64,000 nucleotides of DNA from assembly GCA_019752575.1 (NCBI GenBank), contig JAIELW010000001.1, forward strand, positions 310,001 through 374,000, given 5' to 3'. Position 1 is the stretch's first letter. Every line of letters starts with the position of its first letter. This DNA is from Xanthobacteraceae bacterium (lineage in GTDB: Bacteria > Pseudomonadota > Alphaproteobacteria > Rhizobiales > Xanthobacteraceae). The translations under genes were made by a program, and so were the position numbers. The notes beneath the pieces are model-generated. The model saw nothing but the letters and a program-made list of their open reading frames with translations, was not told the origin of the DNA and searched no databases. Shown piece by piece: positions 39,890-59,501 of the stretch.

Positions 39890-40068
39890 CGGGAATCTGG
39901 AGAAAATGTAATCTTTCTCGGGGGTTACGTTTCGTTTAGCCAGCCGCTAGGTTGTAGCGGGCTCGTGGGTCGCCCCGTCACATTTCGGCCCTGCCATAAT
40001 TGTTTGAACGGCCCAACACGTTCCAGTTTCACCGATTCCGGGGCCCGAAGGTCCGGACAGGAGATTGT

Positions 40069-40770: not shown

Positions 40771-40810
40771 CGAAAGCGCGGGCTTGGCCCGCGCCCGCCA
40801 CCGGCTGGGT

Positions 40811-43149: not shown

Positions 43150-43245
43150 CCGCTTGCATTCCGCAATGCACCTAACCAATATCCGCCTCCCGCGCAGGAC
43201 GCGGAGGAGCCGGGGTTCCCATCGTACCCTCCCCGGCGGAGCCTG

Positions 43246-43653: not shown

Positions 43654-43654
43654 A

Positions 43655-43987
43655 GTGGTGAACTCCGAACTGCCGCCGGAAGACGACTGCAAGCCGAGCG
43701 CGACCGTGCCCGCGGGCGCAGTCTCGAAGGAATTGCCGGTCATCAACAAGCGCGGCCTGCATGCACGCGCGTCCGCGAAATTCGTGCAGATGGCGGAAAA
43801 ATTCGACGCCAAGATTCAGGTCACACGCTGCGGCGAGACCGTGAACGGCGACTCGATCATGGGCCTCTTGATGCTCGCGGCCGGTCCCGGCACCACGATT
43901 CAGGTGACCTGTTCCGGCATGCAAGCGAAGGAAGCGCTTGCCGCACTCGAAACCCTGCTCGCGACCAAGTTCGGCGAAGACGAGTAA
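43655..43987 (+). CDS. ptsH: Phosphocarrier protein HPr with N-terminal extension
   Basis: HPr (110 residues) passes phosphate from EI(Ntr) to EIIA. The active histidine is H36 in RGLHARAS and the HprK target is S67 in NGDSIMGLL; the 31-residue spacing equals that of H15 and S46 in standard HPr. The N-terminus is about 21 residues longer than standard (VNSELPPEDDCKPSATV...), acidic and with one cysteine. Two GTG codons (43655, 43658) can start it; an earlier TTG lies inside the EIIA gene. EI is not in the window. Confidence 0.93.
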   Translation: MVNSELPPEDDCKPSATVPAGAVSKELPVINKRGLHARASAKFVQMAEKFDAKIQVTRCGETVNGDSIMGLLMLAAGPGTTIQVTCSGMQAKEALAALETLLATKFGEDE

Positions 43988-43991
43988 GCGT

Positions 43992-45194
43992 TTAGACGCG
44001 CTTATCGGCGGCGTCGCCGACGTGACCTTTTCTTCCCGCATACCAGCCGGCAATTGCCTGCAAGACCGCGCAGACTGCGATCAGCCAGAGCGGTGCGATC
44101 CAGCTATGGGTCCAGTCGTGCATTGCACCGAACAGCACCGGCCCGACGGCGGCGATGCCGTAGCCGACCGACTGCGCCATGCCGGAAAGTGCCGCCGCCT
44201 GCTGCGTGTTTGAGGCGCGGAGCGCAAAGAAAGCGAGCGCGATCGGAAAGCAAAAGCCGAGCGCGATACCGGAAACGATCACCCAGAAAACCGTGAACTG
44301 CGGCAAGAAGATCATGCCGACGTAGCCCGCGAGCATAATCACGCTCCACAGCACGCTCATGGACCGCTGATCGGCAAAGCGCGACATCATCAGCGGAAAA
44401 ACTAACCCGACCGGGATGCCGAGCGCAGGAAACAACGCGACGATCCAGCCCGCGGCGAGCGGCGTGTAGCCCTGATCCTGCAGGATCGAGGAGAGCCAGC
44501 TCAAGACCGTGTAGAAACTCATCGACTGCAAGCCCATGAACAGCGTCACGTGCCAGCCGAGCTTCGAGCGCCACACGCTCTGCACCGCTTTGTCGCCTGC
44601 TTGCGCGAGTGGCTTCGCCGCGTTCTTCAACTGCGGAAGCAGAATAAGCGCGGTGATAATCGCCGGAATGAACCAGACTGCGAGTGCTGCGCGCCAGCCG
44701 CCGGGAAGATTCTGCGCGAGCGGCACCGAGATTCCCGACGAGAGCGAAGCGAAGGTCGCGAGCGTCGTCGCGTAGACGCTCGTCATCAGACCCACTTTGT
44801 CCGGAAAATCGCGCTTGATGAGACCCGGCACGAGCACGTTGCCGACGGCAATCGCCGCCGCGAGCAGAATCGAGCCCGCATAAAGCGCAATGAGCGATGG
44901 CACCGAGCGCAAGAGCACGCCGGCCGCGAGCACGATCAGCGAAATGAAGATCGCGCGCTCCATGCCGAGCTTGCCGCCGATCGTGGCGGCCCAGGGCGAC
45001 ATCAGGGCAAAGGCGGCCAGCGGGATTGAGGTCAGCACGCCCGCGAGCAGCGCCGAGAGCCCGGTATCCGCGCGGATGAACTCGAGCAGCGGTCCGACGC
45101 CCGTGATCGCGGGCCGGAGATTCATCGAGATCAGGAAGATCGCAGTCACCAGCAGAAAGCTGCCGGCGGCCAGTTTTTTAGGGGATTTTGTCAC
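43992..45194 (-). CDS. MFS transporter, CynX/NimT family
   Basis: This 400-residue protein has twelve predicted membrane helices. SMNLRPAITGVGPLLEFIRADTGLS at the start is typical of the CynX (cyanate) / NimT (2-nitroimidazole) branch; the substrate of this one is unknown. It lies on the opposite strand between ptsH and ahcY, genes that are often near each other in related genomes, so it may be a later insertion. It converges with ptsH four bases away and is divergent from ahcY, so its start region shares the spacer with the ahcY control site. Confidence 0.87.
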   Translation of the reverse strand: MTKSPKKLAAGSFLLVTAIFLISMNLRPAITGVGPLLEFIRADTGLSALLAGVLTSIPLAAFALMSPWAATIGGKLGMERAIFISLIVLAAGVLLRSVPSLIALYAGSILLAAAIAVGNVLVPGLIKRDFPDKVGLMTSVYATTLATFASLSSGISVPLAQNLPGGWRAALAVWFIPAIITALILLPQLKNAAKPLAQAGDKAVQSVWRSKLGWHVTLFMGLQSMSFYTVLSWLSSILQDQGYTPLAAGWIVALFPALGIPVGLVFPLMMSRFADQRSMSVLWSVIMLAGYVGMIFLPQFTVFWVIVSGIALGFCFPIALAFFALRASNTQQAAALSGMAQSVGYGIAAVGPVLFGAMHDWTHSWIAPLWLIAVCAVLQAIAGWYAGRKGHVGDAADKRV

Positions 45195-45258
45195 GGAAGG
45201 GCCTTCAGGGACGCAGTTTCGGTGCGCTTATAGCCCTATCCACTCTAGAATATGCGAC

Positions 45259-45274
45259 ATAAAGAAATCTTTAT
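45259..45274. promoter_or_regulatory. Palindromic operator upstream of ahcY (SahR-like)
   Basis: ATAAAG-AAAT-CTTTAT is a perfect six-base-arm palindrome 98 bases before the ahcY start; adding two bases each side (AC.../...AT) extends it with one mismatch. AT-rich ATAAAGATATCTTTAT-type sites are known in front of S-adenosylhomocysteine cycle genes bound by ArsR-family regulators of the SahR type. Here the call rests on the palindrome and position only; no such regulator gene is in the window. Confidence 0.5.
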
Positions 45275-45372
45275 ATCCCTGTTGCCTCCGCCGGAAGGGG
45301 CTGCTATAGCCACGCCCGAATTCGCGGCTTGTCCGCGCCGCTCCCTTTTCAAAGCAACATCGAAGGATCGTC

Positions 45373-46794
<1,422 letters not shown>

Positions 46795-46800
46795 ATCACG

Positions 46801-46892
46801 CGTCATGGCCGGGCTTGTCCCGACCATCCACGCCTTCTCTGCTGCGCTTTTTTGATAAGGCGTGGATGCCCGCGACGAGCGCGGGCATGACG
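46801..46892. repeat. 92-base double-hairpin REP element, copy 1
   Basis: This element runs from CGTCATGG to CATGACG. It consists of two hairpins facing each other: ATGGCCGGG-loop-CCCGACCAT (one C-A mismatch) and ATGCCCGCG-ACGAG-CGCGGGCAT. Flanks CGTC and CCACGCCTT are inverted at the two ends. A second copy of exactly the same length is at 51671. It follows ahcY immediately and resembles the intergenic palindromic repeats of Rhizobiales. Confidence 0.85.
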
Positions 46893-47057
46893 AGAAAAGG
46901 TTTATCGACTCCATTCGTTAACTTTCGTGATCGCGGAGCGCCGAAAACGCTCCGCGATTTCGTTTTGTTCGGGTCACAACTTCGCCGGTTTGGAGTACAA
47001 TATGAGTCGCGAGGGGCTGGCAGAACTTAATCGCGCGCTTGCGCGTTGGACTAGAGA

Positions 47058-47858
47058 ATGTGCCGCTGGATTGCCTACCGGGGCGAAGAGACTGCGCTCG
47101 AGCGCTACGTCACCGCGCCTGATCACTCCCTCATCCATCAAAGTCTGCACGCGCTGGAGTCGGAAGGCTCCACGAACGGCGACGGCTTCGGCCTTGGCTG
47201 GTATTCCGCGCGCGATACCGAGCCCGGCATCTATCGCGAAATCCGTCCGGCGTGGTCGGACGACAACGTGCGCAATCTCTGCCGCCATATCCGTTCGAAA
47301 CTCTTCTTCGCGCATATCCGCGCCTCCACCGGCACGGCAACGACGAGGCCGAACTGCCACCCTTTTTCCTACGGGCCGTGGATGTTCATGCATAACGGCT
47401 CGATCGGCGAGTGGCCGCTGATCCGCCGCCAGGTCGAGAACATGATCGAGGACCAGTTTTACGGACGCCGCATCGGCACAACGGATTCCGAAGCTGTGTT
47501 TCTGGCGATGCTTTCGGCGGGTCTCGAAAACGATCCGGTCGGCGCCACTGCGCGCGTCATGACGACCGTTACCGATCTCGTGAAAAAAAGCGGGACCGAG
47601 AAGCCGGTACGTTTCACCGCGGCGCTTTCGGACGGGAAGAATCTTTTCGCCTTCCGCTACGCCTCCGACGACACTGCGACTTCGCTTTATTACCGCGACA
47701 TCGGCGACGCTTCGCTGATCGTGTCCGAGCCTTTGGACATGGATCGCACGTTCTGGAATCCGGTGCCGGCGAATTCGCTGATCATCGCGAGCGAAGGCAA
47801 GAAGCTCGTGGTGCAGCCCTTCGCAGTCGAGCCGCCGCAGTTGCGGGCCGTTGGTTGA
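47058..47858 (+). CDS. Class II glutamine amidotransferase domain protein (YafJ-like)
   Basis: This 266-residue N-terminal nucleophile amidohydrolase begins with M-C-RWIAYRG: removal of Met1 exposes the catalytic C2. The glutamine-binding features HIRASTGT and NCHPFSYGPWMFMHNGSIGEW follow at the correct distance. The family includes E. coli YafJ and EgtC of ergothioneine synthesis; no ergothioneine genes are nearby, so the specific reaction is open. The stop lies two bases before a palindromic repeat whose first hairpin could end the transcript. It starts 165 bases after the 92-base repeat. Confidence 0.88.
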   Translation: MCRWIAYRGEETALERYVTAPDHSLIHQSLHALESEGSTNGDGFGLGWYSARDTEPGIYREIRPAWSDDNVRNLCRHIRSKLFFAHIRASTGTATTRPNCHPFSYGPWMFMHNGSIGEWPLIRRQVENMIEDQFYGRRIGTTDSEAVFLAMLSAGLENDPVGATARVMTTVTDLVKKSGTEKPVRFTAALSDGKNLFAFRYASDDTATSLYYRDIGDASLIVSEPLDMDRTFWNPVPANSLIIASEGKKLVVQPFAVEPPQLRAVG

Positions 47859-47860
47859 TC

Positions 47861-47982
47861 GTCGTCCCCGCGAAAGCGGGGACCCATAACCACCCGAGTA
47901 AAAGATAAACTACAGCCTCAGGAAAATTTCTAACTCAGGGATTATGGGTCCCCGATCGCCGCTTCGCGGCATCGAGGACGAC
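47861..47982. repeat. 122-base inverted palindromic element between amidotransferase and GNAT genes
   Basis: The left end GTCGTCCCCGC-GAAA-GCGGGGACCCATAA and the right end TTATGGGTCCCC...GAGGACGAC are inverted copies. Each end folds by itself: the left is a perfect eight-bp stem with a GAAA loop, the right a longer stem with a TTCG-type loop (GCCGCTTCGCGGC). The roughly 40 bases between them are AT-rich. It separates two convergent genes and probably also works as a bidirectional transcript end. Confidence 0.75.
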
Positions 47983-47987
47983 AAAAA

Positions 47988-48485
47988 TCACAACACCTTC
48001 TGCATCAGCACGAGATCGAGCGGACGCCCGAATTTCGTGCCGACGCCGGGCATGCGGCCGACTTCCTCGAAACCGAACTTCACATGCAGCGCGATCGACG
48101 GCGCGTTCGAAGCGTCGATGCCGCCGATCATGTTGTGCTTTTTCAACTTCTGCGCTTCGGCGATCAGCGCTTCGAGGAGCGCTTCGCCTGCGCCCTGCCC
48201 GCGCGCTTGCCTGTCGACATAGACCGAATGCTCGACGGTCACCCGATAGCCCTCGAACGGGCGGAAGTCGCCGAACGAGCCATAACCAATCACGCCGCCG
48301 CGCTCGGCGACCAGAACCGGGAAGCCTTTGCCGGTCCGCTCTGCAAACCACGCCTTGCGGTTCGCGAGATCGACCCGCGTCTCGTTCCAAATCGCGGTCG
48401 TGTTTTCTACCGCGTCGTTATAGATCGCGAGAATCGCCGGCAGGTCGGATCCGGTGGCGGGGCGAATCTTGGGGGGTGATTTCAT
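47988..48485 (-). CDS. GNAT family N-acetyltransferase (phosphinothricin acetyltransferase-like)
   Basis: This 165-residue enzyme acetylates an amine with acetyl-CoA. The start IRPATGSDLPAILAIYNDAVENTTAIW and the core EHSVYVDRQARGQGAGEALLEALI (pyrophosphate-binding RGQGAG) match the Pat/YncA/MddA group, whose members act on phosphinothricin, methionine sulphone/sulphoximine and similar compounds. NAPSIALHVKFGFEEVG is the conserved C-terminal acetyl-CoA region. The gene is flanked on both sides by repeat elements (47861 and 48505). True substrate unknown. Confidence 0.88.
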   Translation of the reverse strand: MKSPPKIRPATGSDLPAILAIYNDAVENTTAIWNETRVDLANRKAWFAERTGKGFPVLVAERGGVIGYGSFGDFRPFEGYRVTVEHSVYVDRQARGQGAGEALLEALIAEAQKLKKHNMIGGIDASNAPSIALHVKFGFEEVGRMPGVGTKFGRPLDLVLMQKVL

Positions 48486-48504
48486 ATAGCCACTCTAGCC
48501 GATT

Positions 48505-48570
48505 CCCCCACCCGCTCGCTGACGCTCGCTTCCCTCCCCCGCTTGCGGGGGAGGGATTCAGGGTGGGGGT
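48505..48570. repeat. 66-base palindromic element upstream of lepA, copy 1
   Basis: This element runs from CCCCCACCC to GGGTGGGGG, with the inner perfect stem TCCCTCCCCCGC-TT-GCGGGGGAGGGA and a side arm CGCTCGCTGACGCTCGCTT. A second copy lies in the opposite orientation at 52111-52178, nearly identical over its length. It stands between the starts of two divergent genes (GNAT and lepA), leaving little room for other promoters: the lepA start is 56 bases away. Confidence 0.82.
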
Positions 48571-48625
48571 TCGGACATTCTGCGCACTTTGCCTTGCCGA
48601 CCGCAGGTGCTAACACCCGCGCGCC

Positions 48626-50434
48626 ATGTCCACGCCCATCGAAAATATCCGCAACTTCTCCATCGTCGCGCATATCGACCACGGCAAATCCACACTCGCC
48701 GACCGGCTGATCCAGCTCACCGGCGCGATGGACGCGCGCGAAATGGCAGGCAAGGAGCAGGTGCTCGACAACATGGACATCGAGCGCGAGCGCGGCATCA
48801 CCATCAAGGCGCAGACCGTGCGCCTGAACTATCACGCGAAGAACGGACAGAATTACGTTCTGAACCTGATCGACACGCCGGGGCATGTCGACTTCGCTTA
48901 CGAAGTGAACCGCTCGCTCGCGGCCTGCGAGGGTTCGCTGCTCGTGGTCGATGCAAGCCAAGGCGTGGAAGCGCAGACGCTCGCGAACGTCTATCAGGCG
49001 ATCAACAACAATCACGAGATCGTGCCGGTCCTGAACAAGATCGACCTTCCGGCCGCCGAGCCGGAAAAGGTCAAAGCGCAGATCGAGGAAGTGATCGGGA
49101 TCGATGCGTCGGGCGCAATCGGCATTTCCGCAAAAACCGGCGAAGGCGTGCCGGATGTCTTGGAAGCCATTGTCGAGAGGCTCCCGGCGCCAAAAGGCGA
49201 CCGCAACGCACCGCTGAAAGCCTTGCTCGTCGATAGCTGGTACGACGCCTATCTCGGCGTCGTCGTGCTCGTGCGCATCATCGACGGCACCATGCGCAAA
49301 AACCAGCGCATCCGCATGATGGGCGCGCGCGCGGCCTACGATCTGGATCGTGTTGGTGTGATCAATCCGAAGAAGGTTGAGGTCGATGAGCTCGGCCCCG
49401 GCGAGATCGGGTTTTTCACCGCCTCCATTAAAGAAGTCGCCGACACGCGCGTCGGCGACACCATCACCGACGACCGGAAGCCCATCGAAAAAGCGCTTCC
49501 CGGTTTCCGCCCGGCGCAGCCGGTCGTGTTCTGCGGGCTGTTTCCGGTCGATGCCGCGCAATTCGAAAACCTTCGCGCGGCGATGTCGAAGCTGCGTTTG
49601 AACGACGCAAGTTTCTCGTTCGAGATGGAAACCAGCGCTGCATTGGGTTTCGGCTTCCGCTGCGGCTTCCTCGGGCTCCTGCATCTCGAAATCATTCAGG
49701 AGCGGCTTTCGCGCGAATTCGATCTCGAACTGATCGCAACAGCGCCCTCGGTGATCTACGAAATTCGCCAGACCGACGGCAGCGTGATGGAGCTGCACAA
49801 TCCGGTCGATATGCCGGATGTCGTGAAGATCGAGGAAATTCACGAGCCCTGGATCAAAGCGACGATTCTGACGCCCGACGAATATCTCGGCTCGGTCATC
49901 AAGCTCTGTCAGGACCGCCGCGGGGCGCAGAAAAATCTCGCTTATGTCGGCGCGCGCGCGATGGTGGAATACGAATTGCCGCTCAACGAGGTTGTGTTCG
50001 ATTTCTACGACCGGCTGAAATCGATCTCCAAGGGCTACGCTTCGTTCGACTACAAGCTGGACGACCGCCGGCCCGGCGATCTGGTGCGGCTATCGATCCT
50101 CGTCAACAACGAGCCGGTCGATGCGCTCGCGATGTTGGTCCACCGCACGCGCGCCGAACAGCGCGGCCGCGCCATGTGCGAGAAGCTGAAAGAGCTGATC
50201 CCGCCGCATATGTTCCAGGTGCCGATCCAGGCCGCGATCGGCGGCAAGGTGATCGCGCGCGAAACCGTGCGCGCGCTCCGCAAGGACGTGACGGCGAAAT
50301 GTTACGGCGGCGACGCCACCCGCAAGCGCAAACTTCTGGACAAGCAGAAGGAAGGCAAAAAGAAAATGCGCCAGTACGGCAAGGTCGACATTCCGCAGGA
50401 AGCGTTCATCGCCGCGCTGAAGGTGGATGGGTAA
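48626..50434 (+). CDS. lepA: Translation elongation factor 4 (LepA)
   Basis: LepA is a ribosome-bound GTPase linked to initiation and back-translocation. The 602-residue protein has G1 [14 protein letters not shown] (about 14-27), G2/G3 RGITIKAQT and [13 protein letters not shown]4 NKIDLP, then domains II, III and V and the LepA-specific C-terminal domain ending with [28 protein letters not shown]. No clear ribosome site precedes the ATG. It is followed 13 bases later by the convergent nuclease gene, with no hairpin between. Confidence 0.97.
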
Positions 50435-50447
50435 TCAGTAATCGCCT

Positions 50448-51374
50448 CTAAATCTTGGAGGGATCGCGAAGCTCGAAATCTATCTTGTAGTGCCTCACCT
50501 CGACACCACTCGTCATACTTAAAGCGTATGTGAGCCTCTTGTCCGCATCCCGAGTAATGATGAGGCCTCTCACCCCTTGCCCGTCTTTACACAGATTCTC
50601 TTTAACCCATCCCATATATCGAAGTGTTTGGCCTACCACCCTGTCGGAGTGGCGACCCTTTTTCAATTCGATAACTACAAAATCGCCTGAGCTTTTCTCA
50701 ATCGCAAGTATGTCGATTGAGCCAACATCGGTAGTGAATTGCTGTCCTTCGAATTCTTCCGATTCTTCGTAAACCTTTAGCGTCCCTTTGAAGATCGATT
50801 GAAAGTTATCGACTATAAAATCTTCCAAATACTTTTCGAGAAAAAACGCCTGAGGATCAATCTGATCGTCCTCTTGAATTGCTAACTCTACCGCGACCTT
50901 GTCAACCTCCGTCAGTCGGCGTGCCGCTTCTTCGGTCGTCTGGCTGATCGTCTGCATAGGAAATACTATAGAGCCAAATTGCTTATCGCGAGGAGACGAC
51001 CTCCATGCGACTTCTAAAAAGTTTGCATGATCGACAGCCTCATTTCGGCCCGGCGTGTACTGTGCCTTTGCGGTTACGTCTCCAACACCGACTAGAGTTT
51101 TGCGCCCACGCCTCGCAAGCACTACGTCGCCAACTTCTATCTCATGATAAAAATTCCAGAATGTATTGACTATGTGGGCCTGACTGCGAGGAGAATTGTT
51201 TGGATATTTCTTCGCGACTGTCTCAATTAAATTTTCTCGTTCTGAGCTAGACACATTGCCAAGCTCGTTCCACCCGATTGAAATTACATTGTTGGAAAGG
51301 TCGAAGCGCCAAACCCGATCGAACACTTCTACAGGATTGGCTTCAACTGGCGCGATAATCCACGTTTTCGGCAT
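50448..51374 (-). CDS. PUA/EVE-like domain fused to NucS-like PD-(D/E)XK nuclease; candidate modification-dependent nuclease
   Basis: This 308-residue protein has two parts. The N-terminal half (about 1-140) looks like a PUA/EVE-type reader: VISIGWNELGNVSS and FYHEIEVGDVVLARRGRKTLVGVGDV are the conserved strands seen in such domains of restriction proteins. The C-terminal half (about 168-300) is a NucS/DUF91-like nuclease core: D221 in TDVGSIDILAIE, E236-L-K238 in VVIELKKG and Q249 in VVGQTLRYMGW form a complete active site. The gene is much AT-richer than its neighbours (sampled lines about 35-52% GC), so it was probably acquired recently. It lies between lepA and a repeat-rich block. Defence against modified DNA is inferred, not shown. 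Confidence 0.75.
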   Translation of the reverse strand: MPKTWIIAPVEANPVEVFDRVWRFDLSNNVISIGWNELGNVSSSERENLIETVAKKYPNNSPRSQAHIVNTFWNFYHEIEVGDVVLARRGRKTLVGVGDVTAKAQYTPGRNEAVDHANFLEVAWRSSPRDKQFGSIVFPMQTISQTTEEAARRLTEVDKVAVELAIQEDDQIDPQAFFLEKYLEDFIVDNFQSIFKGTLKVYEESEEFEGQQFTTDVGSIDILAIEKSSGDFVVIELKKGRHSDRVVGQTLRYMGWVKENLCKDGQGVRGLIITRDADKRLTYALSMTSGVEVRHYKIDFELRDPSKI

Positions 51375-51433
51375 TTGTCTTCGCTAATGTCTAAAGAACT
51401 GCTCCAAGTATTATCGATAGGCCGTCCAAAGCC

Positions 51434-51459
51434 AAACGCCCCGCTATCGCGGGGCGTTT
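51434..51459 (+). terminator. Orphan Rho-independent terminator
   Basis: An 11-bp perfect stem (AAACGCCCCGC at 51434-51444 against 51449-51459) with loop TATC is followed on the plus strand by TTTTCGTTTC. No plus-strand gene ends here: lepA stops about 1 kb earlier and the nuclease gene runs the other way and starts at 51374. It may be a remnant of a lost gene or the end of a small RNA. Confidence 0.75.
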
Positions 51460-51475
51460 TCGTTTCACGGGTTTC
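51456..51475 (+). repeat. Left copy of an exact 20-bp direct repeat
   Basis: The bases GTTTTCGTTTCACGGGTTTC recur unchanged at 52082-52101. The two copies bound a gene-free block of 646 bases (including both copies) that holds two REP-type elements and a hairpin array. The left copy overlaps the tail of the orphan terminator. Such exact flanking repeats can mark an insertion or a recombination site. Confidence 0.7.
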
Positions 51476-51481
51476 CAATTT

Positions 51482-51638
51482 CGTCATCACCGGGCGGCAA
51501 ACGTCCCGCGAGCGAAGTGAGCGGCTGACGTTTGCCTGACCCGGTGATCCATGAAGCCTTTGCAACGCCGTCTGGATTACCGGGTCTCGTCACGCCATCG
51601 GCTCGTTCCTCGCCGTGCGTGACGGCCCGGTAATGACG
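51482..51638. repeat. 157-base double-palindrome repeat, copy A
   Basis: Two hairpins in tandem form this element. The first pairs ATCACCGGG with CCCGGTGAT and encloses GGCAAACGTC/GACGTTTGCC. The second pairs ATTACCGGG with CCCGGTAAT and encloses GTCACGC/GCGTGAC. The ends are CGTCAT and ATGACG. Copy B is at 53060-53213 in the same orientation and about 85% alike by eye. It belongs to no coding sequence. Confidence 0.85.
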
Positions 51639-51670
51639 AAGAAAAATAATAGAAGCGCCTTTTTTTACTC

Positions 51671-51762
51671 GTCATGCCCGGCCTTGTGCCGGGCATCCAC
51701 GCCTTCGCTACTCATCAACGCCGTAAAGACGTGGATGGCCGGGACAAGCCCGGCCATGACGA
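51671..51762. repeat. 92-base double-hairpin REP element, copy 2
   Basis: This copy has the same length and ends as the element at 46801. Its hairpins are ATGCCCGGC-CTTGT-GCCGGGCAT and ATGGCCGGG-ACAAG-CCCGGCCAT, both perfect nine-bp stems. Where it differs from copy 1, the partner bases usually change too. It sits just before the promoter-like sequence at 51784. Confidence 0.85.
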
Positions 51763-51783
51763 AAAGAACGCGCGATTAAAATC

Positions 51784-51811
51784 TTGACTTTCGCCGTTCT
51801 AGGAATATATT
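51784..51811 (+). promoter_or_regulatory. Promoter-like sequence in front of the hairpin array
   Basis: TTGACT and TATATT are separated by 16 bases, close to the housekeeping sigma consensus. A transcript would begin near 51818 and run into the hairpin array at 51850-51973. There is no convincing coding sequence behind it. A match of this quality in a GC-rich genome is uncommon but could arise by chance in this AT-rich spot. Confidence 0.5.
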
Positions 51812-51849
51812 CTCCGTCACAAACTCTGCGGCAGGTACCTTGCCGCGGG

Positions 51850-51973
51850 GTGGAGCGCCCGGAGGCGCCGCCCCTGTCCACGCAGGGGTGGAACGCTTCG
51901 CAAGCGTTCCGGCGGAGTTCGCTGCTCCGTCAAGAGCGTCTCGCAAACGCTCTGGCGCCTCCCGGCGCTCCAC
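51850..51973 (+). other. Nested hairpin array, possible structured RNA or mobile palindrome
   Basis: An outer inverted repeat of 20 bp (51850-51869 against 51954-51973, 19 of 20 paired) encloses four hairpins in a row: CCCCTG/CAGGGG (51871-51888), GGAACGCTT/AAGCGTTCC (51890-51910), CGGAG/CTCCG (51913-51929) and AGAGCGT/ACGCTCT (51933-51953). Each outer arm can also fold alone (GCGCC/GGCGC). The downstream stretch to 52060 adds smaller stems, for example CAAGCG/CGCTTG at 52031-52046. In effect every base from 51850 to 51973 can be paired. Short open frames cross it on both strands but share the low complexity of the palindromes. Function unknown. Confidence 0.6.
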
Positions 51974-52081
51974 TCCTCTTTGGAGCAAAGGAAAATGGGT
52001 GCGGCGGCGCGGCGCCGAAAAAATACTCCGCAAGCGAAGACGCTTGGCTGTTTGAAGGTTTGAATCAGCGATGTGTCGGCG

Positions 52082-52101
52082 GTTTTCGTTTCACGGGTTT
52101 C
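52082..52101 (+). repeat. Right copy of the exact 20-bp direct repeat
   Basis: This is identical over 20 bases to 51456-51475. The following bases GTGTGAAAC allow its GTTTCAC part to form a small hairpin that the left copy cannot form. The 66-68-base palindrome starts ten bases later. Confidence 0.7.
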
Positions 52102-52110
52102 GTGTGAAAC

Positions 52111-52178
52111 ACCCCCACCCTGAATCCCTCCCCCGCAAGCGGGGGAGGGAAGCGAGCGATTAGCGAGCGGGTGGGGGT
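52111..52178. repeat. 68-base palindromic element, copy 2 (inverted relative to the lepA copy)
   Basis: Read on the minus strand it repeats the element at 48505: CCCCCACCCGCTCGCT, a short variable arm, TTCCCTCCCCCGC and the paired right side. The variable arm differs (CTAATCGCTCG here, CTGACGCTCG there). It ends five bases before the stop of the PRC-barrel gene and may act as its terminator. Confidence 0.82.
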
Positions 52179-52182
52179 TGGA

Positions 52183-52578
52183 TCACGCCCAATAGGTCGG
52201 CACGCCGTAGTGGCCGTAGATCTTCTGGCCCTGCACGGTGTCCCAGGAATATTCCTTGCCCGGATCGAAGTGCGGCGCGGCTTTGAGTTCCGCTTCCGAA
52301 ATGTTCACCTCGTAGCCCTGAAGCTTCGGATTGTAGTCGAGCTTGGCCCACGGCACCGGATAGTGATCGTGGCCGAGGCCGAGGAACCCGCCGAAGCTCA
52401 TCACAGCGTAAGCCACCTGCCCGGAATATTTGTCGATCATCAGCCGTTCGATCGAGCCGATTTTGGTTCCGTCCGAGCGATAGACATTGGTGCCTTCGAC
52501 GCGATCGCTCTCTATCAGGTCGTGGGTGAGCTTGGTGTGCGTGGTATCGGCCATTGCGCGCGGTGCTGCTGTCGCCAT
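52183..52578 (-). CDS. PRC-barrel domain protein
   Basis: This 131-residue protein has one PRC-barrel domain (about 25-85): VEGTNVYRSDGTKIGSIERLMIDKYSGQVAYAVMSFGG is the classical strand pattern. Such stand-alone PRC proteins occur in rhizobia, often linked to stress, and their role is unclear. The ATG at 52578 has GGAGGA four to five bases upstream; the ATG at 52590 used by the longer frame overlaps that ribosome site and is unlikely. It is divergent from the small basic protein gene at 52722. Confidence 0.87.
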   Translation of the reverse strand: MATAAPRAMADTTHTKLTHDLIESDRVEGTNVYRSDGTKIGSIERLMIDKYSGQVAYAVMSFGGFLGLGHDHYPVPWAKLDYNPKLQGYEVNISEAELKAAPHFDPGKEYSWDTVQGQKIYGHYGVPTYWA

Positions 52579-52721
52579 CGTCTCCTCCATGAATGCGTAA
52601 GGTCCGCCCTCCTCGTGAAGCGAGAACGGCGGAACGAAAGCCTTGTTCCGCGCGCCGCAGGAACAAACGTCACATGGCCGCGTTCGCGCCAGACGGCGGA
52701 CAAATTCTCAGGGAGATGACA

Positions 52722-53048
52722 ATGCCTCGCGGCGACAAGTCGGCCTACACCGACAAGCAGAAACGCAAGGCCGGATACATCGAGGAAAGCTACAAGCAGC
52801 GCGGCTTATCCGACGAGGAAGCCGAGCGGCGCGCCTGGGCGATCGTGAACAAGATTCACGGCGGCGGCGAATTAAGCGGGTCCGGGCGCGGCAAGAAGGA
52901 AAATCGTTCCGCCTCGCGCAAAGGCGGGCGCTTGAGCGGTCGCGCAGCGGGTTCGCGCTCGAAAGCGGCAAAGCGGCGCTCGGCCAAGAAGGCGGCGAAG
53001 ACGCGCGCGAGAAAATCGAAATCCAAATCGCGCAAGCGCCGCGCGTAA
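52722..53048 (+). CDS. Small basic protein with lysine/arginine/serine-rich tail
   Basis: This 108-residue protein starts PRGDKSAYTDKQKRKAGYIEES and continues with YKQRGLSDEEAERRAWAIVNKIHGGG, a short helical module common in rhizobial proteins labelled 'plasmid stabilization protein', without proven function. From about residue 52 the chain is almost only K, R, S, A and G (SGRAAGSRSKAAKRRSAKKAAK), like the tail of histone H1. Nucleic-acid binding is likely on charge alone. Of the two nearby ATGs, 52722 lies six bases after GGGAG, while 52716 touches it. A 154-base repeat begins 12 bases after the stop. Confidence 0.8.
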   Translation: MPRGDKSAYTDKQKRKAGYIEESYKQRGLSDEEAERRAWAIVNKIHGGGELSGSGRGKKENRSASRKGGRLSGRAAGSRSKAAKRRSAKKAAKTRARKSKSKSRKRRA

Positions 53049-53059
53049 CCTCTTACTTT

Positions 53060-53213
53060 GTCATTACCGGACGGCAAACGTCCGCGAGCGTGGCGAGCGG
53101 CTGACGTTTGCCTGATCCGGTAATCCATACAGCGTCGCAATACCTCATGGATTACCGGGTCTCGTCACGCCATCGGCTCGTTCCTCGCCGGGCGTGAGGG
53201 CCCGGTAATGACG
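53060..53213. repeat. 154-base double-palindrome repeat, copy B
   Basis: This copy matches the element at 51482 along its whole length, in the same orientation 1.58 kb away. In the first hairpin the closing stem is ATTACCGGA/TCCGGTAAT instead of ATCACCGGG/CCCGGTGAT: two pairs changed on both sides together. The second hairpin is almost unchanged. It lies between the basic protein gene and the L,D-transpeptidase stop, eight bases away. Confidence 0.85.
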
Positions 53214-53220
53214 AGGTTTT

Positions 53221-53724
53221 TTAGCGCACCAGCGACGTGCTCGATACAAACCGGTCTTCGCGGACGACGACGACCCGCAGGCTCTGCGGACCCCGCGCCT
53301 TCACCATCTCGAAAAGAATCTTCGCGTTGTCCGGATGCAGCCGCGTGCACCCCATCGAGGCGGTGCGGCCGAGCATATGGATCGCCATGGTGCCGTGGAT
53401 GGCGTAGTGGCCGTCATAGAAGATCGAATACGGCATCGGCGCATTGTTGAAGAGGCGCGAATAGGTGATCACATGCATCGACTGCACCTTGAAGGTGCCG
53501 GCCGGCGTGATGGCGACGCCGTCGCGGCCGGTCGAAACCGGCCACACATATTGCTCGACGCCATCGACCACGACGCGCATTTCCTGCTTCGGCACCAGAA
53601 TCGTGACCACGATCGACGGCGGCACATCGGCGGCGCTAGCTGCGACCAGTGCGGCGCTGCTCTGCGCGCTCGCGGGTGCTGCGAACGCAGCAAGGAACGC
53701 GGCGGCGGCAAAAAGACGTTTCAT
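53221..53724 (-). CDS. L,D-transpeptidase (YkuD family)
   Basis: This 167-residue periplasmic enzyme crosslinks peptidoglycan through L,D bonds or anchors proteins to it. It has a Sec signal peptide (LFAAAAFLAAFAAPASA) followed directly by the YkuD domain. The catalytic motif is complete: H116 in IHMLGR, then S-x-G-C126-x-R128 (ASMGCTRLH); H110 lies in YAIHGTM. There is no LysM or other binding domain. The next gene on the other strand, mepA, is also a cell-wall enzyme; the two are divergent with 158 bases between. Confidence 0.92.
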   Translation of the reverse strand: MKRLFAAAAFLAAFAAPASAQSSAALVAASAADVPPSIVVTILVPKQEMRVVVDGVEQYVWPVSTGRDGVAITPAGTFKVQSMHVITYSRLFNNAPMPYSIFYDGHYAIHGTMAIHMLGRTASMGCTRLHPDNAKILFEMVKARGPQSLRVVVVREDRFVSSTSLVR

Positions 53725-53882
53725 TGAATAGCCCCGTAACTTTCGATTCAGCCCGGAACATTTATTGAGGGGGCCGCGACTTTCCGCAAGTGCGGGGGGG
53801 CCACACCGGCCCGATGTCGCGGGTTTGTTACCGAAAGAAGCCCATTTTTGGCGGCAGGAAGCGTTTCAGATAGGGTTTCGAC

Positions 53883-54755
53883 ATGACGCGCCGCTTCGCC
53901 TTTTACGCTCTGGCTATCCTCCTTGCCGGTCCGGCTGCCGCGCAGACCCCCGCGCCCAACGCGCCCGCCAAGGAGCTGTTCGGGAAGAAGTCGGACGCGG
54001 CCCCGTTGAAGGCCCGCGCCATCGGCTTCTATTCCAAGGGGTGCCTCGCCGGCGGTATCGCGCTGCCGGTAAACGGCCAGACTTGGCAGGTGATGCGGCT
54101 CTCGCGCAACCGCAACTGGGGCCACCCGGACCTGATCGCTTTTCTTGAGCGCTTCGCCGCGAAGGTGCCGCAGGTCGCGGGCTGGAACGGAATTCTCGTG
54201 GGCGATCTCGCGCAGCCGCGCGGCGGGCCGATGCTCACCGGCCATGCCTCGCACCAGGTGGGCCTGGACGCCGACATCTGGCTAACGCCGATGCCCGAGC
54301 GCACGCTCAACACCGAAGAGCGCGAATCCTTCCCGCCGCAATTGATGGTGCGCGCCGACCGCCGCGACGTGGATCCGAAAATCTTCACACCCGGCCATGT
54401 GCAGCTGATCCGCGCGGCGGCGGAGGACAAGGAGGTCGAGCGCATTTTCGTGAACGCTGCGATCAAAAAGGCGCTATGCCGCGAAGCGCCGAACCAGCTC
54501 TGGCAATCGAAGGTGCGCGCTTACTGGGGCCACGACTATCACATGCATGTCCGCCTGCGCTGCCCGAAGGACAGCCCGGACTGCACGCCGCAAACGCCGC
54601 CCGGCAACGACGACGGCTGTGGCAGGGAACTCGATTTCTGGTTTCAGGATGCGATCCTGAATCCGCCGCCGCCTAAGGTGAAACCGAAGCCGAAGCCCCC
54701 GATCACGATGGCGGAGCTGCCGCCATCGTGCCGGGATGTCCTGATTGCGAAGTAG
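53883..54755 (+). CDS. mepA: Penicillin-insensitive murein endopeptidase MepA
   Basis: MepA cleaves D-Ala-meso-DAP (and DAP-DAP) crosslinks in peptidoglycan in the periplasm. The 290-residue protein has a signal peptide ending near AAAQ and the LAS-type zinc site: H121 and D131 in GHASHQVGLDAD, and HDYHMHVR near 213-220, all with the same spacing as in E. coli MepA. Cysteines expected to form disulphides are present (for example C54). A proline/lysine-rich stretch (PPPPKVKPKPKPP) near the C-terminus may span the wall. It meets the Yip1-like gene four bases on. Confidence 0.95.
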   Translation: MTRRFAFYALAILLAGPAAAQTPAPNAPAKELFGKKSDAAPLKARAIGFYSKGCLAGGIALPVNGQTWQVMRLSRNRNWGHPDLIAFLERFAAKVPQVAGWNGILVGDLAQPRGGPMLTGHASHQVGLDADIWLTPMPERTLNTEERESFPPQLMVRADRRDVDPKIFTPGHVQLIRAAAEDKEVERIFVNAAIKKALCREAPNQLWQSKVRAYWGHDYHMHVRLRCPKDSPDCTPQTPPGNDDGCGRELDFWFQDAILNPPPPKVKPKPKPPITMAELPPSCRDVLIAK

Positions 54756-54758
54756 CGC

Positions 54759-55331
54759 CTAGCGCGCGACCAGTGCCGCGAGCGGGAACAGCAACAGCCC
54801 GCCGATCACCGCAGTGATGACGATCGAAACCACGATCGCGCAGATCAGGGCGACGATGAAGTAGCCCATGACCTTTTCCTGCGGGGTCCGCATCAGCGTC
54901 GGCAGACCGATATAGAGCAGGTACAGGCTGTAGATGCCGCCGGCGAGCGCGATCAGGCCGCCGAGCACCGGGATCACCGCGAAGAAGCCCGCGACCCACG
55001 AAGCGGTATAGGCATAAGCCGTCAGCTTCAGCGCGCTCGGGAAGTGCTTCTCGCTCGAGAAGGTCGGGGCGAGCGCATCGATGATGAAGGCGACGACATA
55101 GACCACGACGAAGGCAAGCACGTAGCCGACGATCGCTGCGAAGATGACATAGACCAGCGGCAGCGGTCCGGCGAGCAGGCCGCCGATAATGCCGCCGACC
55201 AGCGGCAGCAGCGCGAGGATCGCGACATAAGTGAAGACTTCCTTGGTGTCGCCGGGTTCACCGTCGATGACCGGCCACTCGGTCTTTGGAGTCAGCAGAA
55301 TATTTTTTACGCGATCGACGATACCGGCCAT
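54759..55331 (-). CDS. Yip1 domain integral membrane protein
   Basis: This 190-residue protein has five probable membrane helices and begins with the conserved cytoplasmic segment VDRVKNILLTPKTEWPVIDGEPGD, typical of bacterial Yip1-domain proteins. Function in bacteria is not known. The ATG at 55331 is preceded by GGAGG five bases upstream, which decides it over the start seven codons earlier. It is convergent with mepA. Confidence 0.87.
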   Translation of the reverse strand: MAGIVDRVKNILLTPKTEWPVIDGEPGDTKEVFTYVAILALLPLVGGIIGGLLAGPLPLVYVIFAAIVGYVLAFVVVYVVAFIIDALAPTFSSEKHFPSALKLTAYAYTASWVAGFFAVIPVLGGLIALAGGIYSLYLLYIGLPTLMRTPQEKVMGYFIVALICAIVVSIVITAVIGGLLLFPLAALVAR

Positions 55332-55508
55332 GTGAACCTCCTGCCCCGTCACCTCGACCCCCGAGGCGATTCGAATGCGCGGCGGATATAGCCGCCGGAC
55401 ACATATAAAGTCACGCGGAACGAGCCGCAGATCAACGGCTTTTCGGGCATTTCACAACGGCGTGCTCCGGCCTGTCATCGGCGTCCGAATCCCTGCAATT
55501 TTCGACGC

Positions 55509-56339
55509 ATGCGAAGCTTTCCGCCCCGCCGCATCGTCTGCCTGACCGAAGAGACGGTAGAAACGCTCTATTTAATGGGCGAGGACGCCCGGATCGTGGG
55601 CGTTTCGGGCTATGCGGTGCGGCCGCCGCGGGTGCGGAAAGAAAAGCCGCGGGTCGCAGCCTTCATCTCGGCGGATGTGCCGAAAATTCTCGCGCTTGAG
55701 CCGGACCTCGTGCTGACCTTTTCCGATCTGCAGGCCGGGATCGTCGCCGATCTCGTCAAGGCCGGGATCGCGGTCCACGCCTTCAACCAGCGGGATGTCG
55801 CCGGCATCTTTGCGATGATCGAGACGCTCGGCGGACTGATCGGCGCGCCCGGAAAAAGCGCTACGCTTTGTGCCGGTCTACGGAAGCGGCTCGACGACGC
55901 GCGTACAAGAGGCGCCGCCCTGCCGGTGCGGCCACGCATCTACTTCGAGGAATGGGATAAGCCGATGATCTCGGGCATCGGCTGGGTATCGGAACTGATC
56001 GAGATCGCGGGCGGCATCGAAATCTTTCCCGAACTTGCGACGAAAAAATCGGCGCCCGAGCGCGTCGTGACGGGCGAGCAGGTGATCGCAGCAAAGCCCG
56101 ACATCGTGATCGGTTCCTGGTGCGGAAAGAAATTCCGGCCGGAGTATTTCGCAGCGCGCCCCGGCTTCGATGCCATCCCCGCCGTGCGCGACAATTTTCT
56201 CCGCGAGATCAAATCGGCGATTATCCTTCAGCCCGGCCCCGCGGCGCTGACCGACGGGCTGGCTGCGATCGAAGCCATCGTCGCCGAATGGGTCGCGGCA
56301 CAGGGACAGGGTAAACGCACCCTTGCCGCGAAAAGCTGA
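55509..56339 (+). CDS. BtuF-like (cobalamin/iron-chelate) binding protein without signal peptide
   Basis: This 276-residue protein has the bilobal fold signature of class III binding proteins: RIVCLTEETVETLYLMGEDARIVGVSGYAV at the start and EPDLVLTFSDLQAGIVADLVKAGIAVHAF, followed by a second lobe with ISGIGWVSELIEIAGG. No signal peptide or lipobox precedes the domain, and no transport genes adjoin. It is therefore likely cytoplasmic, or its true start was missed; the frame gives no better start upstream. It may be a cytosolic cobalamin- or chelate-sequestering protein, a guess. Confidence 0.8.
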   Translation: MRSFPPRRIVCLTEETVETLYLMGEDARIVGVSGYAVRPPRVRKEKPRVAAFISADVPKILALEPDLVLTFSDLQAGIVADLVKAGIAVHAFNQRDVAGIFAMIETLGGLIGAPGKSATLCAGLRKRLDDARTRGAALPVRPRIYFEEWDKPMISGIGWVSELIEIAGGIEIFPELATKKSAPERVVTGEQVIAAKPDIVIGSWCGKKFRPEYFAARPGFDAIPAVRDNFLREIKSAIILQPGPAALTDGLAAIEAIVAEWVAAQGQGKRTLAAKS

Positions 56340-56410
56340 AGCGCGAGTGCGCTCTTTGCGATTTGGCGCCGCATTTGTTTTATTGGTCTTCCCAGCCGAA
56401 GAAGAATGCC

Positions 56411-59323
56411 GTGGCAGCCAACAAGAGCTTTTTGAGCGATCTCTTTCAGACGATCTCGGAACGCGGCCGAGATCTGATGGCGCGTGCGCGGGGGCGCACG
56501 AAGCCTGTCGGCGAGGTGCGCACCGAGAATCTGGTCGAACTTTGCGAGCATCTCCTCTCGGGCCGTGGCGAGGCATCCGGTGTTGCGCTGGCGGCTGAGA
56601 TTCTCGAGGACTATCGCGAACTGAAAACCGGCGAGCGGGTCGCCTTCTTCGAGGCGCTCGCGCACCGCTTCGGACCGGATCGCGAGCGGCTGAAGCAGGC
56701 CGCGCAGCATTATATCGACAAGCAGAGCGAAGACGCCGAAGCGGAATTGCACGACGCCGCCGAGCCAAGGCGTCAGGAAATCGTGCGGCGGCTCAACCTC
56801 GCGCCGGACGGCACCGAGACACTGGTTTCGATGCGCGCAAATCTCCTCGACGCCCTCGAGCGGCGTTCGGATCTGGAGTCGGTGGACCGCGATTTCGTGC
56901 ATCTGTTCTCGTCGTGGTTCAATCGCGGCTTTCTGGTGCTGAAAAGGATCGACTGGTCATCGCCTGCGATCGTGCTCGAAAAAATTATCCGCTATGAAGC
57001 GGTGCACGAAATTCGGGACTGGAACGACCTGCGTGCGCGCATCGACCCGCCAGACCGGCGCTGCTACGCCTTCTTTCATCCCGCGCTCACGGACGAGCCG
57101 CTGATCTTCGTCGAAGTCGCGCTGACGAAGGAGATTCCGGGCGCGATCGGCCCGATCCTGACGCACGGGAGAAAACAGCTCGACCCGCGCGAAGCGACGA
57201 CTGCCGTGTTCTACTCGATCTCAAACACGCAGCGGGGGCTTGCCGGCGTTTCCTTCGGCAGCTTTTTGATCAAGCAGGTCGCCGAGGAAATTTCCCGCGA
57301 GTTTCCGAAGCTCGATGCGTTCGTTACCCTCTCGCCTGTGCCTGGCTTTGCGAAATGGCTTGCGCGCGAACGCAAGAATGAATCATCTGATACGATCCGC
57401 GATGCCGACCGGGCGGCGCTCGCGCTGCTCGACCGTCCTGGTTGGGAACAGAGCGAAAAGAGCCGCAGCGAAGCCGCCGGCGCGCTGACCGCCCTCGCCG
57501 CGCATTACTTTCTGCATGGAAAAACCAGCTACGGACGTCCGCTCGATCCGGTCGCGCGTTTCCATCTTGGCAACGGCGCCGCGCTCGCGCATATCCACGC
57601 TTCCGCCGATCTTTCGCCGCGCGGCATCGCGCAATCGCATGGCGTTATGGTGAACTACCGTTATGACCTTTCTCAAATCGAGCAGAACCACGAAGCCTAT
57701 GCGGAGGATAGCGAAGTCGTCGCAAGCAAGGATGTCAGGAAACTTCTGCGGCAACCACAATCTGCGCGAGCGGCACCTGCGAGAATACCTGTCATGAGTG
57801 GCGGCAATTATCTCTTTGGCGCGCTCGAAGGCGCGATCCCGTCGCGCGATAAAACGCTGATCGAATTGCCGGACGGCAAGATAATTACTTATCGCGAGGT
57901 GTTCGATCTCGCGGCGAAGATCTCCGCGTATCTCGTTCGCTGCAAGGTAATGCCCGGGGACCGGGTCGCGGTGCAGGTCGAAAAGTCCTGGCAGAACCTC
58001 GCGCTCTATCTCGGCGTGGTGCGCGCGGGCGGCGTCTATCTGCCGCTCAATACCGCCTATCCGCTTGCGGAACTCGAATACTTCCTTAGCGACGCCGAGC
58101 CGCGCGTCGTCGTCTGCAAGCCGGAAACGGAAAGCGGCGTAAATGCGCTCGCCGCGAAACTGAAAATCGCGACCGTCGAAACGCTCGGCGTTAACGGCGA
58201 CGGCACGCTGATCGCAAACGCGAAGGACGCCACACCGCTCGCGCCGGCTGCCCGCGCGGCAAAAGACCTAGCCGCAATTCTTTATACGTCCGGCACCACC
58301 GGCCGATCGAAAGGAGCGATGCTCTCGCACGAGAACCTGCTCTCGAATGCGATGACGCTGAAAGACTACTGGCGCTTCACCGAAAAAGACGTGGTCCTGC
58401 ACGCGCTGCCGATCTATCACACGCACGGACTTTTCGTTGCAATGAACGTGGTGCTGCTCGCCGGCGCGTCCATGCTGTTCTTCGGCAAGTTCGAAGCCGA
58501 CGAGATGATCCGGCTCATGCCGAAGGCGACTTCGATGATGGGTGTGCCGACCTTCTATGTGCGCTTCGCGGATCATCCGAAGGTCACGAAAGAAACGACG
58601 AAGCACATGCGCCTGTTCGTTTCCGGTTCGGCGCCGCTGCTCGCGGAAACCCATCGCGCATTCTCGGAGAAAACCGGCCACGCGATCCTCGAGCGCTACG
58701 GCATGACCGAAACCAATATGAATACGTCGAACCCTTATGACGGTGACCGCATTCCGGGCACGGTCGGCTTTCCGCTGCCGGGCGTCGAATTGCGCATCGC
58801 CGATCCCGAGAGCGGCAAGGTTCTCGCGCAGGGCGAAATCGGCGTGATCGAAGTCAAAGGCCCGAATGTGTTTCAGGGCTACTGGCGCATGCCGGAGAAG
58901 ACGGCCGCCGAATTCCGCGCCGACGGCTTCTTCATCACCGGCGATCTCGGCAAAATCGACGAGCGCGGCTACGTGCACATCGTCGGCCGCGGCAAGGATC
59001 TCGTGATCTCGGGCGGCTTCAACGTCTATCCGAAGGAAGTCGAAGGCGAGATCGACGCGATCCCGGGTGTCGTCGAATCCGCCGTGATCGGCGTGGCGCA
59101 CCCTGATCTTGGGGAAGCCGTGACCGCTGTCGTGGTGAAGGCCAAGGGTTCGGCGCTGTCCGAAGCCGAAATTCTGGGTGCGCTCGAGGGCCGCATCGCC
59201 CGCTTCAAGCAACCCAAGCACGTGTTTTTCGTGGATGACCTGCCACGCAACGCGATGGGCAAGGTGCAGAAGAACGTGCTGCGCGAAACTTACGCAAAGA
59301 CCTATTCGAAGAACCTGGCCTGA
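56411..59323 (+). CDS. Fused malonyl-CoA decarboxylase / malonyl-CoA synthetase (MatA-MatB)
   Basis: One uninterrupted frame encodes two enzymes that are separate genes (matA, matB) in Rhizobium. Residues about 15-450 match malonyl-CoA decarboxylase: FVHLFSSWFNRGFLVLKRIDW and GRPLDPVARFHLGNGA, which includes the catalytic region. A short linker (PQSARAAPARIPV) leads to an acyl-CoA ligase from about 462 (SGGNYLFGALEG) with YTSGTTGRSKGAM (about 624), ERYGMTETNMNT and FVDDLPRNAMGKVQKN, all MatB signatures. Malonate plus CoA would become malonyl-CoA, then acetyl-CoA and CO2. GTG 56411 gives 970 residues; the ATG at 57794 (residue 462) could start MatB alone but has no ribosome site. Confidence 0.9.
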   Translation: MAANKSFLSDLFQTISERGRDLMARARGRTKPVGEVRTENLVELCEHLLSGRGEASGVALAAEILEDYRELKTGERVAFFEALAHRFGPDRERLKQAAQHYIDKQSEDAEAELHDAAEPRRQEIVRRLNLAPDGTETLVSMRANLLDALERRSDLESVDRDFVHLFSSWFNRGFLVLKRIDWSSPAIVLEKIIRYEAVHEIRDWNDLRARIDPPDRRCYAFFHPALTDEPLIFVEVALTKEIPGAIGPILTHGRKQLDPREATTAVFYSISNTQRGLAGVSFGSFLIKQVAEEISREFPKLDAFVTLSPVPGFAKWLARERKNESSDTIRDADRAALALLDRPGWEQSEKSRSEAAGALTALAAHYFLHGKTSYGRPLDPVARFHLGNGAALAHIHASADLSPRGIAQSHGVMVNYRYDLSQIEQNHEAYAEDSEVVASKDVRKLLRQPQSARAAPARIPVMSGGNYLFGALEGAIPSRDKTLIELPDGKIITYREVFDLAAKISAYLVRCKVMPGDRVAVQVEKSWQNLALYLGVVRAGGVYLPLNTAYPLAELEYFLSDAEPRVVVCKPETESGVNALAAKLKIATVETLGVNGDGTLIANAKDATPLAPAARAAKDLAAILYTSGTTGRSKGAMLSHENLLSNAMTLKDYWRFTEKDVVLHALPIYHTHGLFVAMNVVLLAGASMLFFGKFEADEMIRLMPKATSMMGVPTFYVRFADHPKVTKETTKHMRLFVSGSAPLLAETHRAFSEKTGHAILERYGMTETNMNTSNPYDGDRIPGTVGFPLPGVELRIADPESGKVLAQGEIGVIEVKGPNVFQGYWRMPEKTAAEFRADGFFITGDLGKIDERGYVHIVGRGKDLVISGGFNVYPKEVEGEIDAIPGVVESAVIGVAHPDLGEAVTAVVVKAKGSALSEAEILGALEGRIARFKQPKHVFFVDDLPRNAMGKVQKNVLRETYAKTYSKNLA

Positions 59324-59501
59324 CGCTCCGTACCGCTTTGCGGGCCTGCAAGAGCTTTATCGCATTTCAGCCTACATAGAACGGCGCGCCTTCGTATTGC
59401 GGCGCAATAAGTTCAAGGCGTCCCTCAAAGGTACTGTTGGAAGTCCAATGGTTTCATTTCATGATGGACCGATAAGAAAAGTCTTAGGGAGGAGACTACC
59501 A

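Follow-up and report, generated by a model that had tools for sequence, protein, structure and literature searches.

A candidate stand-alone, modification-dependent restriction nuclease behind lepA in a Xanthobacteraceae bacterium

Why does a single gene of unusually low GC content lie directly behind lepA in a bacterium of the family Xanthobacteraceae, where did it come from, and what might its product do? We analysed it within a stretch of 64,000 nucleotides (the window; all positions are counted in it). The gene had been picked out in a preliminary description as a laterally acquired reader joined to a nuclease.

A low-GC gene in a variable pocket behind lepA

The following features define the locus.

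48626-50434, plus strand: lepA, the upstream border of the insertion (ORF list, congener comparison)
50435-51433, no strand: inserted segment of about 1.0 kb with one gene, from the lepA stop to the hairpin, missing in congener G006
50448-51374, minus strand: reader-nuclease gene of PDC-S02 type, 308 aa (ORF list, PADLOC, AlphaFold2 (AF2) model)
51434-51475, plus strand: hairpin block, directly 3' of lepA in G006, terminator-like by eye
51480-51645, no strand: copy 1 of a dispersed 166-nt intergenic repeat (repeat search of window and genome)
53057-53214, no strand: copy 2 of the same repeat, 87% (same search)

A low-GC ORF of 308 residues, adjoining lepA in repeat-rich surroundings, had been proposed here, and all of this held. 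The ORF starts with ATG, has 308 codons and runs towards lepA; the lepA stop codon, ending at 50434, and the 3' end of the ORF are 13 nt apart. Its GC content is 47.0%, against 60.8% for the whole window, and falls into 55/36/50% by codon position; third-position GC in neighbouring ORFs is 80% (lepA), 78% (52183-52590) and 87% (45373-46794). This is the lowest-GC region of the 64 kb: the ten lowest-GC intervals of 927 nt (step 50) all start within 50301-50751. In the ORF list nothing else within the inserted segment made a convincing second gene (an antitoxin, for instance), and no tRNA that could have been an insertion target was found at 40000-60000. The hairpin was judged terminator-like by eye and is absent from the terminator/hairpin scan listing. 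The 166-nt repeat is not part of the inserted segment. Across the genome it has 19 matches, many of them partial, spread over about 13 separate places, and it also matches its own reverse complement. The stretch 51778-52040 is single-copy in the genome.

Comparison of the lepA site in five of seven congeners (the other two had no lepA match at the threshold used) showed contents that vary, with the gene in none of the five. In G006 the lepA stop runs straight into the hairpin, leaving an empty junction. The pocket holds about 140 bases and no clear gene in G003, a 255-aa ORF (secreted by eye) in G002, and in G001 (L119) a 44%-GC orphan ORF (168-177 aa) that spans roughly nt 6-539 past lepA. 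This orphan, with no Pfam match at E 0.01 and no PADLOC match at 0.001 for its 168-aa form, is a candidate accessory or defence gene. In G007 a 50%-GC gene (L121:1897-3213) encodes a 439-aa DUF4041/T5orf172 protein which by sequence matches a PD-Lambda-1/SNIPE-type defence gene (PADLOC, E 1e-107); PD-Lambda-1 is the SNIPE nuclease, for which passages of PMC13190303 describe a transmembrane segment. Given these contents, the pocket is a variable site, with another type of defence in one sister genome, and the suggestion of a hot spot is borne out. A literature search without preprints returned no paper on lepA as a hot spot by title.

lepA matched in 56 other family genomes, and we read the locus in 28 of them, one of which (L170) has only 89 bases downstream. 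Small accessory genes lie there, including DUF2442 (L154) and DUF4258 (L161), and other ORFs are metabolic-looking or without assignment, so the site does not serve defence alone. A 285-aa ORF (L159) and a 113-aa ORF (L176) had no match at 0.001, and a 286-aa methyltransferase-like ORF (L171) gave a weak mad2 match as its sole PADLOC result.

Two homologues, from Afipia (L031) and Bradyrhizobium (L039), likewise sit behind lepA and point towards it as in the window, beginning 712 and 211 bases after its last sense codon, compared with 17 in the window. PemK/MazF-like genes are near both (L031:7034-7360 and L039:5377-5945), with a MazE-like antitoxin gene in L039 as well. Separate arrivals at the lepA site and an old arrival followed by many losses both fit this pattern. 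The contig with the Acidobacteria homologue (L030) starts 193 bases ahead of this gene, and inspection of its ORFs by eye revealed no lepA.

The gene itself is rare among close relatives. It matched in none of seven congeners (72-100% complete), the opposite of a normal-GC gene present in all relatives, and at full length in two of 391 family genomes, its own and G696; the coordinates of the latter match those of the Afipia record. Among GTDB contigs a scan turned up 291 relatives, of which we retained the best 80. Among these 80, nine loci have the full-length architecture of the window protein: Acidobacteria (L030), Afipia (L031), Chloroflexus (L032), a Thermoplasmata archaeon (L033), HR23 (L034), a proteobacterium (L035), two Dehalococcoidia (L037, L038) and Bradyrhizobium (L039, frameshifted); L036 is a cut copy. 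Within the best 80 of 291, same-architecture relatives are thus scattered over archaea, Chloroflexi, Acidobacteria and Proteobacteria, and the eight unbroken ones are 41-56% identical to the window protein. In a tree of ten rows the Afipia and Bradyrhizobium homologues group at 100/98, the window protein joins the Acidobacteria homologue at 87/87, which is not strong, and the four come together at 99/99.

Foreign composition, absence from congeners, patchy spread and the tree support the proposed lateral acquisition. Phage or plasmid origin was considered and rejected. None of 50,697 phage records matched at E 1e-5; of 72,556 plasmid records 28 did, all under 60% identity and none reaching 80% query coverage as counted by the tool; and the three viral-contig loci belong, by their first residues, to a sister subfamily described below.

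The Bradyrhizobium homologue (L039:6001-6952) is split by a frameshift into frames of 220 and 121 aa, and therefore the gene can be lost. This loss, together with the unrelated genes found at the site in congeners, would suit a passenger gene that is inactive or decaying and has stayed by chance where insertions are tolerated. The window copy, however, is intact with all four catalytic residues present, and same-architecture homologues occur in several phyla; we consider a passenger improbable.

Two predicted folds in one chain

The encoded protein divides as follows.

50901-51374, minus strand: N-domain, residues 1-158, predicted EVE/YTH-like fold of the PUA superfamily (AF2, VIA-align 2, alignment)
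51270-51272, minus strand: W35 codon, candidate base-pocket aromatic (conservation; pocket role conjectural)
50862-50897, minus strand: disordered linker, residues 160-171, pLDDT under 50 (AF2)
50469-50858, minus strand: C-domain, residues 173-302, NucS/EndoMS-like PD-(D/E)XK nuclease (Pfam, phmmer, AF2, VIA-align 2)
50712-50714, minus strand: D221 codon, aligned with D160 of 2vld (phmmer alignment, hand count)
50661-50669, minus strand: E236-x-K238 codons, aligned with E174 and K176 of 2vld (same basis)
50628-50630, minus strand: Q249 codon, aligned with Q187 of 2vld (same basis)

The AlphaFold2 model, built on a 30-row alignment of the window protein and 29 relatives picked by hand, had a mean pLDDT of 88 and a pTM of 0.58, and the placing of the two domains relative to each other in it is uncertain. 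By Foldseek alone, NucS/EndoMS ranked first and YTHDF2 fourth; the best viral fold match was an uncharacterised Myoviridae protein (E 8e-10, TM 0.39 of query).

By predicted structure the C-terminal half is NucS-like, as had been claimed. Pfam recognised this half alone, as NucS_C (E 1.3e-5, 25.6 bits, cut-off 24), with YhcG_C, PDDEXK_1 and DUF234 below their own cut-offs. In VIA-align 2 the C-domain aligned with EndoMS 5gke (Z 13.4, rmsd 2.7, 109 aligned) and NucS 2vld (Z 13.2, rmsd 2.5, 108 aligned). D160, E174, K176 and Q187 of 2vld are what we take to be the NucS catalytic residues, and their counterparts D221, E236, K238 and Q249 are all retained, identical in 30/30 rows (the window protein and the 29 picked relatives), as are E180, E184, N190, R252 and Y253.

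A DNA-repair or mismatch nuclease of NucS/EndoMS function, steered by the reader, had been offered as a second reading. The closest solved folds of the C-domain are indeed NucS/EndoMS, and the NucS_C score lies just above its cut-off. Against this, the NCBIfam NucS equivalogs scored 33.5 bits against a cut-off of 216 and 18.4 against 252, neither reached; the N-domain aligns with EVE/YTH chains; and patchy spread and a variable site are unlike a repair gene. Mismatch repair was rejected as the main reading on the equivalog scores, and we regard it as most improbable.

For the N-terminal half, the predicted structure agrees with the PUA/EVE-like reader that had been proposed. In VIA-align 2 the modelled N-domain aligned with the archaeal EVE structures 2p5d (Z 11.0, rmsd 2.4, 113 aligned) and 1wmm (Z 10.9, rmsd 2.5, 113 aligned), with YTH domains (Z about 9.3-10.3 among the rows listed) and with the EVE domain of VcaM4I, 6yex (Z 10.1, rmsd 3.2, 120 aligned). 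Pfam EVE (PF01878) gave no row for the window protein at E up to 10, under filters that drop most weak matches; hhalign against five alphaproteobacterial EVE proteins gave a probability of only 51-53%; and an N-domain profile run against the PDB found no reader, its sole match being pelota at E 0.1. An EVE assignment by sequence was rejected on these three results. Since the link to EVE is out of reach of sequence methods, we use "PUA-superfamily, EVE/YTH-like" as a description of the predicted structure, and because the fold is similar yet lacks a Pfam match, we call the domain EVE-like and do not file it as EVE. The N-domain is thus predicted from its model to have a PUA-superfamily reader fold.

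YTH domains, many of which read m6A in RNA, rank beside EVE for this domain, which would suit a nuclease that reads an RNA modification, or an abortive (suicidal) effector, in place of a restriction enzyme. The C-domain, however, resembles DNA nucleases and the inserted segment has no convincing second gene such as an antitoxin, which makes this alternative very unlikely.

The same N-domain occurs on other effectors. It precedes an Mrr_cat nuclease in 3/3 proteins scanned (L014, L017, L019) and is present in 5/5 AAA_5 McrB-type proteins scanned (L002, L011, L015, L018 and P0003, the last a hair under the AAA_5 cut-off), both sets having been picked because they looked so. MrcB_N was present in two of the five McrB-type proteins and a separate Pfam EVE in one. 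In L028 (P0003, Microvirga plasmid pMVF16-5), MrcB_N, Pfam EVE and a window-type N-domain stand in tandem before AAA_5, so that this chain apparently holds three reader domains. In L018:67-2610 the N-domain (about residues 480-595) seems to be inserted between the two halves of the AAA module, as if into the motor. Across 19 N-domains from three architectures, G34, W35, G82, G98 and W124 were identical in 19/19, W5 and D83 were kept in 18/19, and these seven and F75 were each present in at least 17/19. W35, found in 22/30 rows once the sister subfamily is included, may sit in a base pocket. The N-domain profile matched ten of 198 family genomes, its own included and no congener among them. A class-level search, matching 22 of 385 genomes (own included), yielded proteins that share one half only. 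The C-domain, for its part, also follows DUF7669 domains (2/2 scanned) and adjoins a methyltransferase gene on plasmid pTK7.

Family membership and the type I restriction context

PADLOC assigned the window protein to PDC-S02 (PDLC04824; E 2.1e-56, 189 bits), over residues 42-303 of the protein and 43-306 of the 308-position profile. The label extends to Mrr-type proteins bearing the N-domain (2/2 scanned). Most relatives belong to a sister subfamily of about the same length with an MKxYYRxMLG-like start, assigned by eye from the first residues: 64 of the best 80 of 291 relatives. Adding the three viral-contig loci gives a sister set of 67. The remaining six of the best 80 differ in their N-terminal part or are truncated by a contig end. 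One sister protein, L055, matches PDLC04824 over its full length (510 bits), and its model (mean pLDDT 85) has the same two folds as the window protein, aligning with 2vld (Z 14.7, rmsd 2.1), the PH1033 EVE structure 2hd9 (Z 10.8, rmsd 2.6) and VcaM4I (Z 10.5, rmsd 3.0).

We searched the fetched flanks for type I genes with HsdR, HsdS and HsdM seeds, two taken from loci of the set (L055, L101) and three from an A. pittii plasmid. A type I gene was present at 36/67 sister-subfamily loci versus 0/10 window-type loci (Fisher p 0.0013, with flank lengths that vary with contig ends and loci that are not independent). The six loci in neither group had none, and the same seeds found none in the 64-kb window. 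Many of the sister loci (L042-L112) have hsdR directly adjacent, and the A. pittii copy is embedded in an hsdS-hsdM-hsdS-x-Abi-hsdR run. Among 91 ORFs of 110-1100 aa within 600 nt of 64 sister loci, a scan that covered sister-adjacent ORFs alone, HSDR_N was found in 18, Methylase_S in 11 and N6_Mtase in three.

This context would suit a helper of type I restriction-modification (R-M) enzymes that clears DNA they cannot cut or trims their products, the solo copy working with R-M enzymes elsewhere in the genome. Besides the sister loci, the adjacent ORFs and the A. pittii run, such a role gains from a proposal, in passages of PMC7641849, that EVE proteins encoded next to HsdRMS extend restriction to modified DNA. 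Yet all ten window-type loci are free of type I genes in the fetched DNA, as is the window, and for the solo protein we think a helper role unlikely.

Proposed action and comparison with known systems

We favour the reading of the window protein as a candidate stand-alone, laterally acquired, modification-dependent (type IV-like) restriction nuclease, at a probability of about 0.6. The predicted PUA-superfamily N-domain would flip out a modified base of invading phage DNA and bind it. Binding would release or position the NucS-like PD-(D/E)XK domain (D221, E236, K238, Q249, metal dependent), which, on its flexible linker and probably as a dimer, would cut the DNA. Host DNA would be spared if it carries no such modification, and because of that lack no methyltransferase partner would be needed. 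This type IV-like reading is the most economical because reader and nuclease form one chain, no convincing second gene accompanies them, the spread is patchy and the kin have defence-type neighbours. Counting against it are the failure of sequence comparison to tie the N-domain to EVE, the uncertain placing of the two domains, the unvalidated status of PDCs, the lack of type I neighbours at the ten window-type loci, the broken Bradyrhizobium copy and the non-defence genes at the site in other genomes. The preliminary description is partly supported: its single-gene defence module stands as a single-gene candidate (PDC-S02) at a site with a defence gene in G007, and modified-base binding and DNA cutting, which it also proposed, stay predictions.

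The host genome has two PF01555 methyltransferase matches, so any marks of its own must escape the reader. GANTC methylation is usual for one such methyltransferase in this bacterial group; should one of the two enzymes act on GANTC, a reader of 6mA in general would be toxic to its own cell. By analogy, VcaM4I offers a working precedent for base flipping by an EVE domain controlling a nuclease: passages of PMC7897488 report that its EVE domain flips 5mC or 5hmC and that removing EVE leaves a toxic nuclease.

Much of this places the protein within a known candidate kind. PDC-S02 is a named candidate family that occurs in four papers of the literature searched, without preprints, which yielded no test of it; PDCs are described as unvalidated in PMC12988326, whose main text does not name S02. 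Fusions of EVE and PD(D/E)XK domains were predicted to be type IV restriction enzymes by Bell et al. 2020 (in passages of PMC7641849). Because the PDC-S02 label is established and these fusions were predicted in 2020, the window protein is a further member of this kind. A search without preprints found no paper joining an EVE domain, NucS and restriction, and a single one, on Haloferax, for NucS with type IV restriction. In a search mostly of titles, also without preprints, we met no account in print of the solo window-type subgroup, of this N-domain on three kinds of effector or of the lepA pocket.

A wider reading is speculative, and we hold it as doubtful. The N-domain could be an unnamed branch of base readers beside EVE/YTH, traded among NucS-like, Mrr-type and McrB-type effectors and reading one phage DNA modification that the host lacks. 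Its solo form would travel as a single-gene cassette that targets the lepA-hairpin pocket or is retained there time and again, the pocket being a family docking site for single-gene phage defence (this nuclease, the SNIPE-type nuclease, MazEF-like pairs). If the type IV-like reading is right, a candidate family contains a compact single-chain enzyme against modified phage DNA, and if the same reader serves three effector types, one assay would bear on all three. In this bacterial family, a search for more one-gene defences could start at the lepA pocket.

Among known systems, NucS/EndoMS has the C-domain fold and the D, E-x-K and Q residues in common with the window protein, which differs in an N-domain that matches EVE/YTH and in missing the equivalog cut-off. 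VcaM4I (EVE-HNH) likewise combines an N-terminal EVE-like reader and a C-terminal nuclease in one chain, but there the nuclease is HNH and not NucS-like PD-(D/E)XK. The EVE-PD(D/E)XK fusions of Bell et al. 2020 also pair a reader with PD-(D/E)XK, in a paper (PMC7641849) whose main text does not use the word NucS. The Mrr- and McrB-type proteins share the N-domain, down to its five invariant residues, and differ in their effector, Mrr_cat or an AAA_5 motor. With PDC-S02 the window protein shares its length, a match over most of the protein, from residue 42 on, and the two predicted folds, which L055 has as well; within this family the window protein belongs to a divergent solo subgroup with a WVIAP...IGW start, in contrast to the YYRIMLG type found near type I R-M genes.
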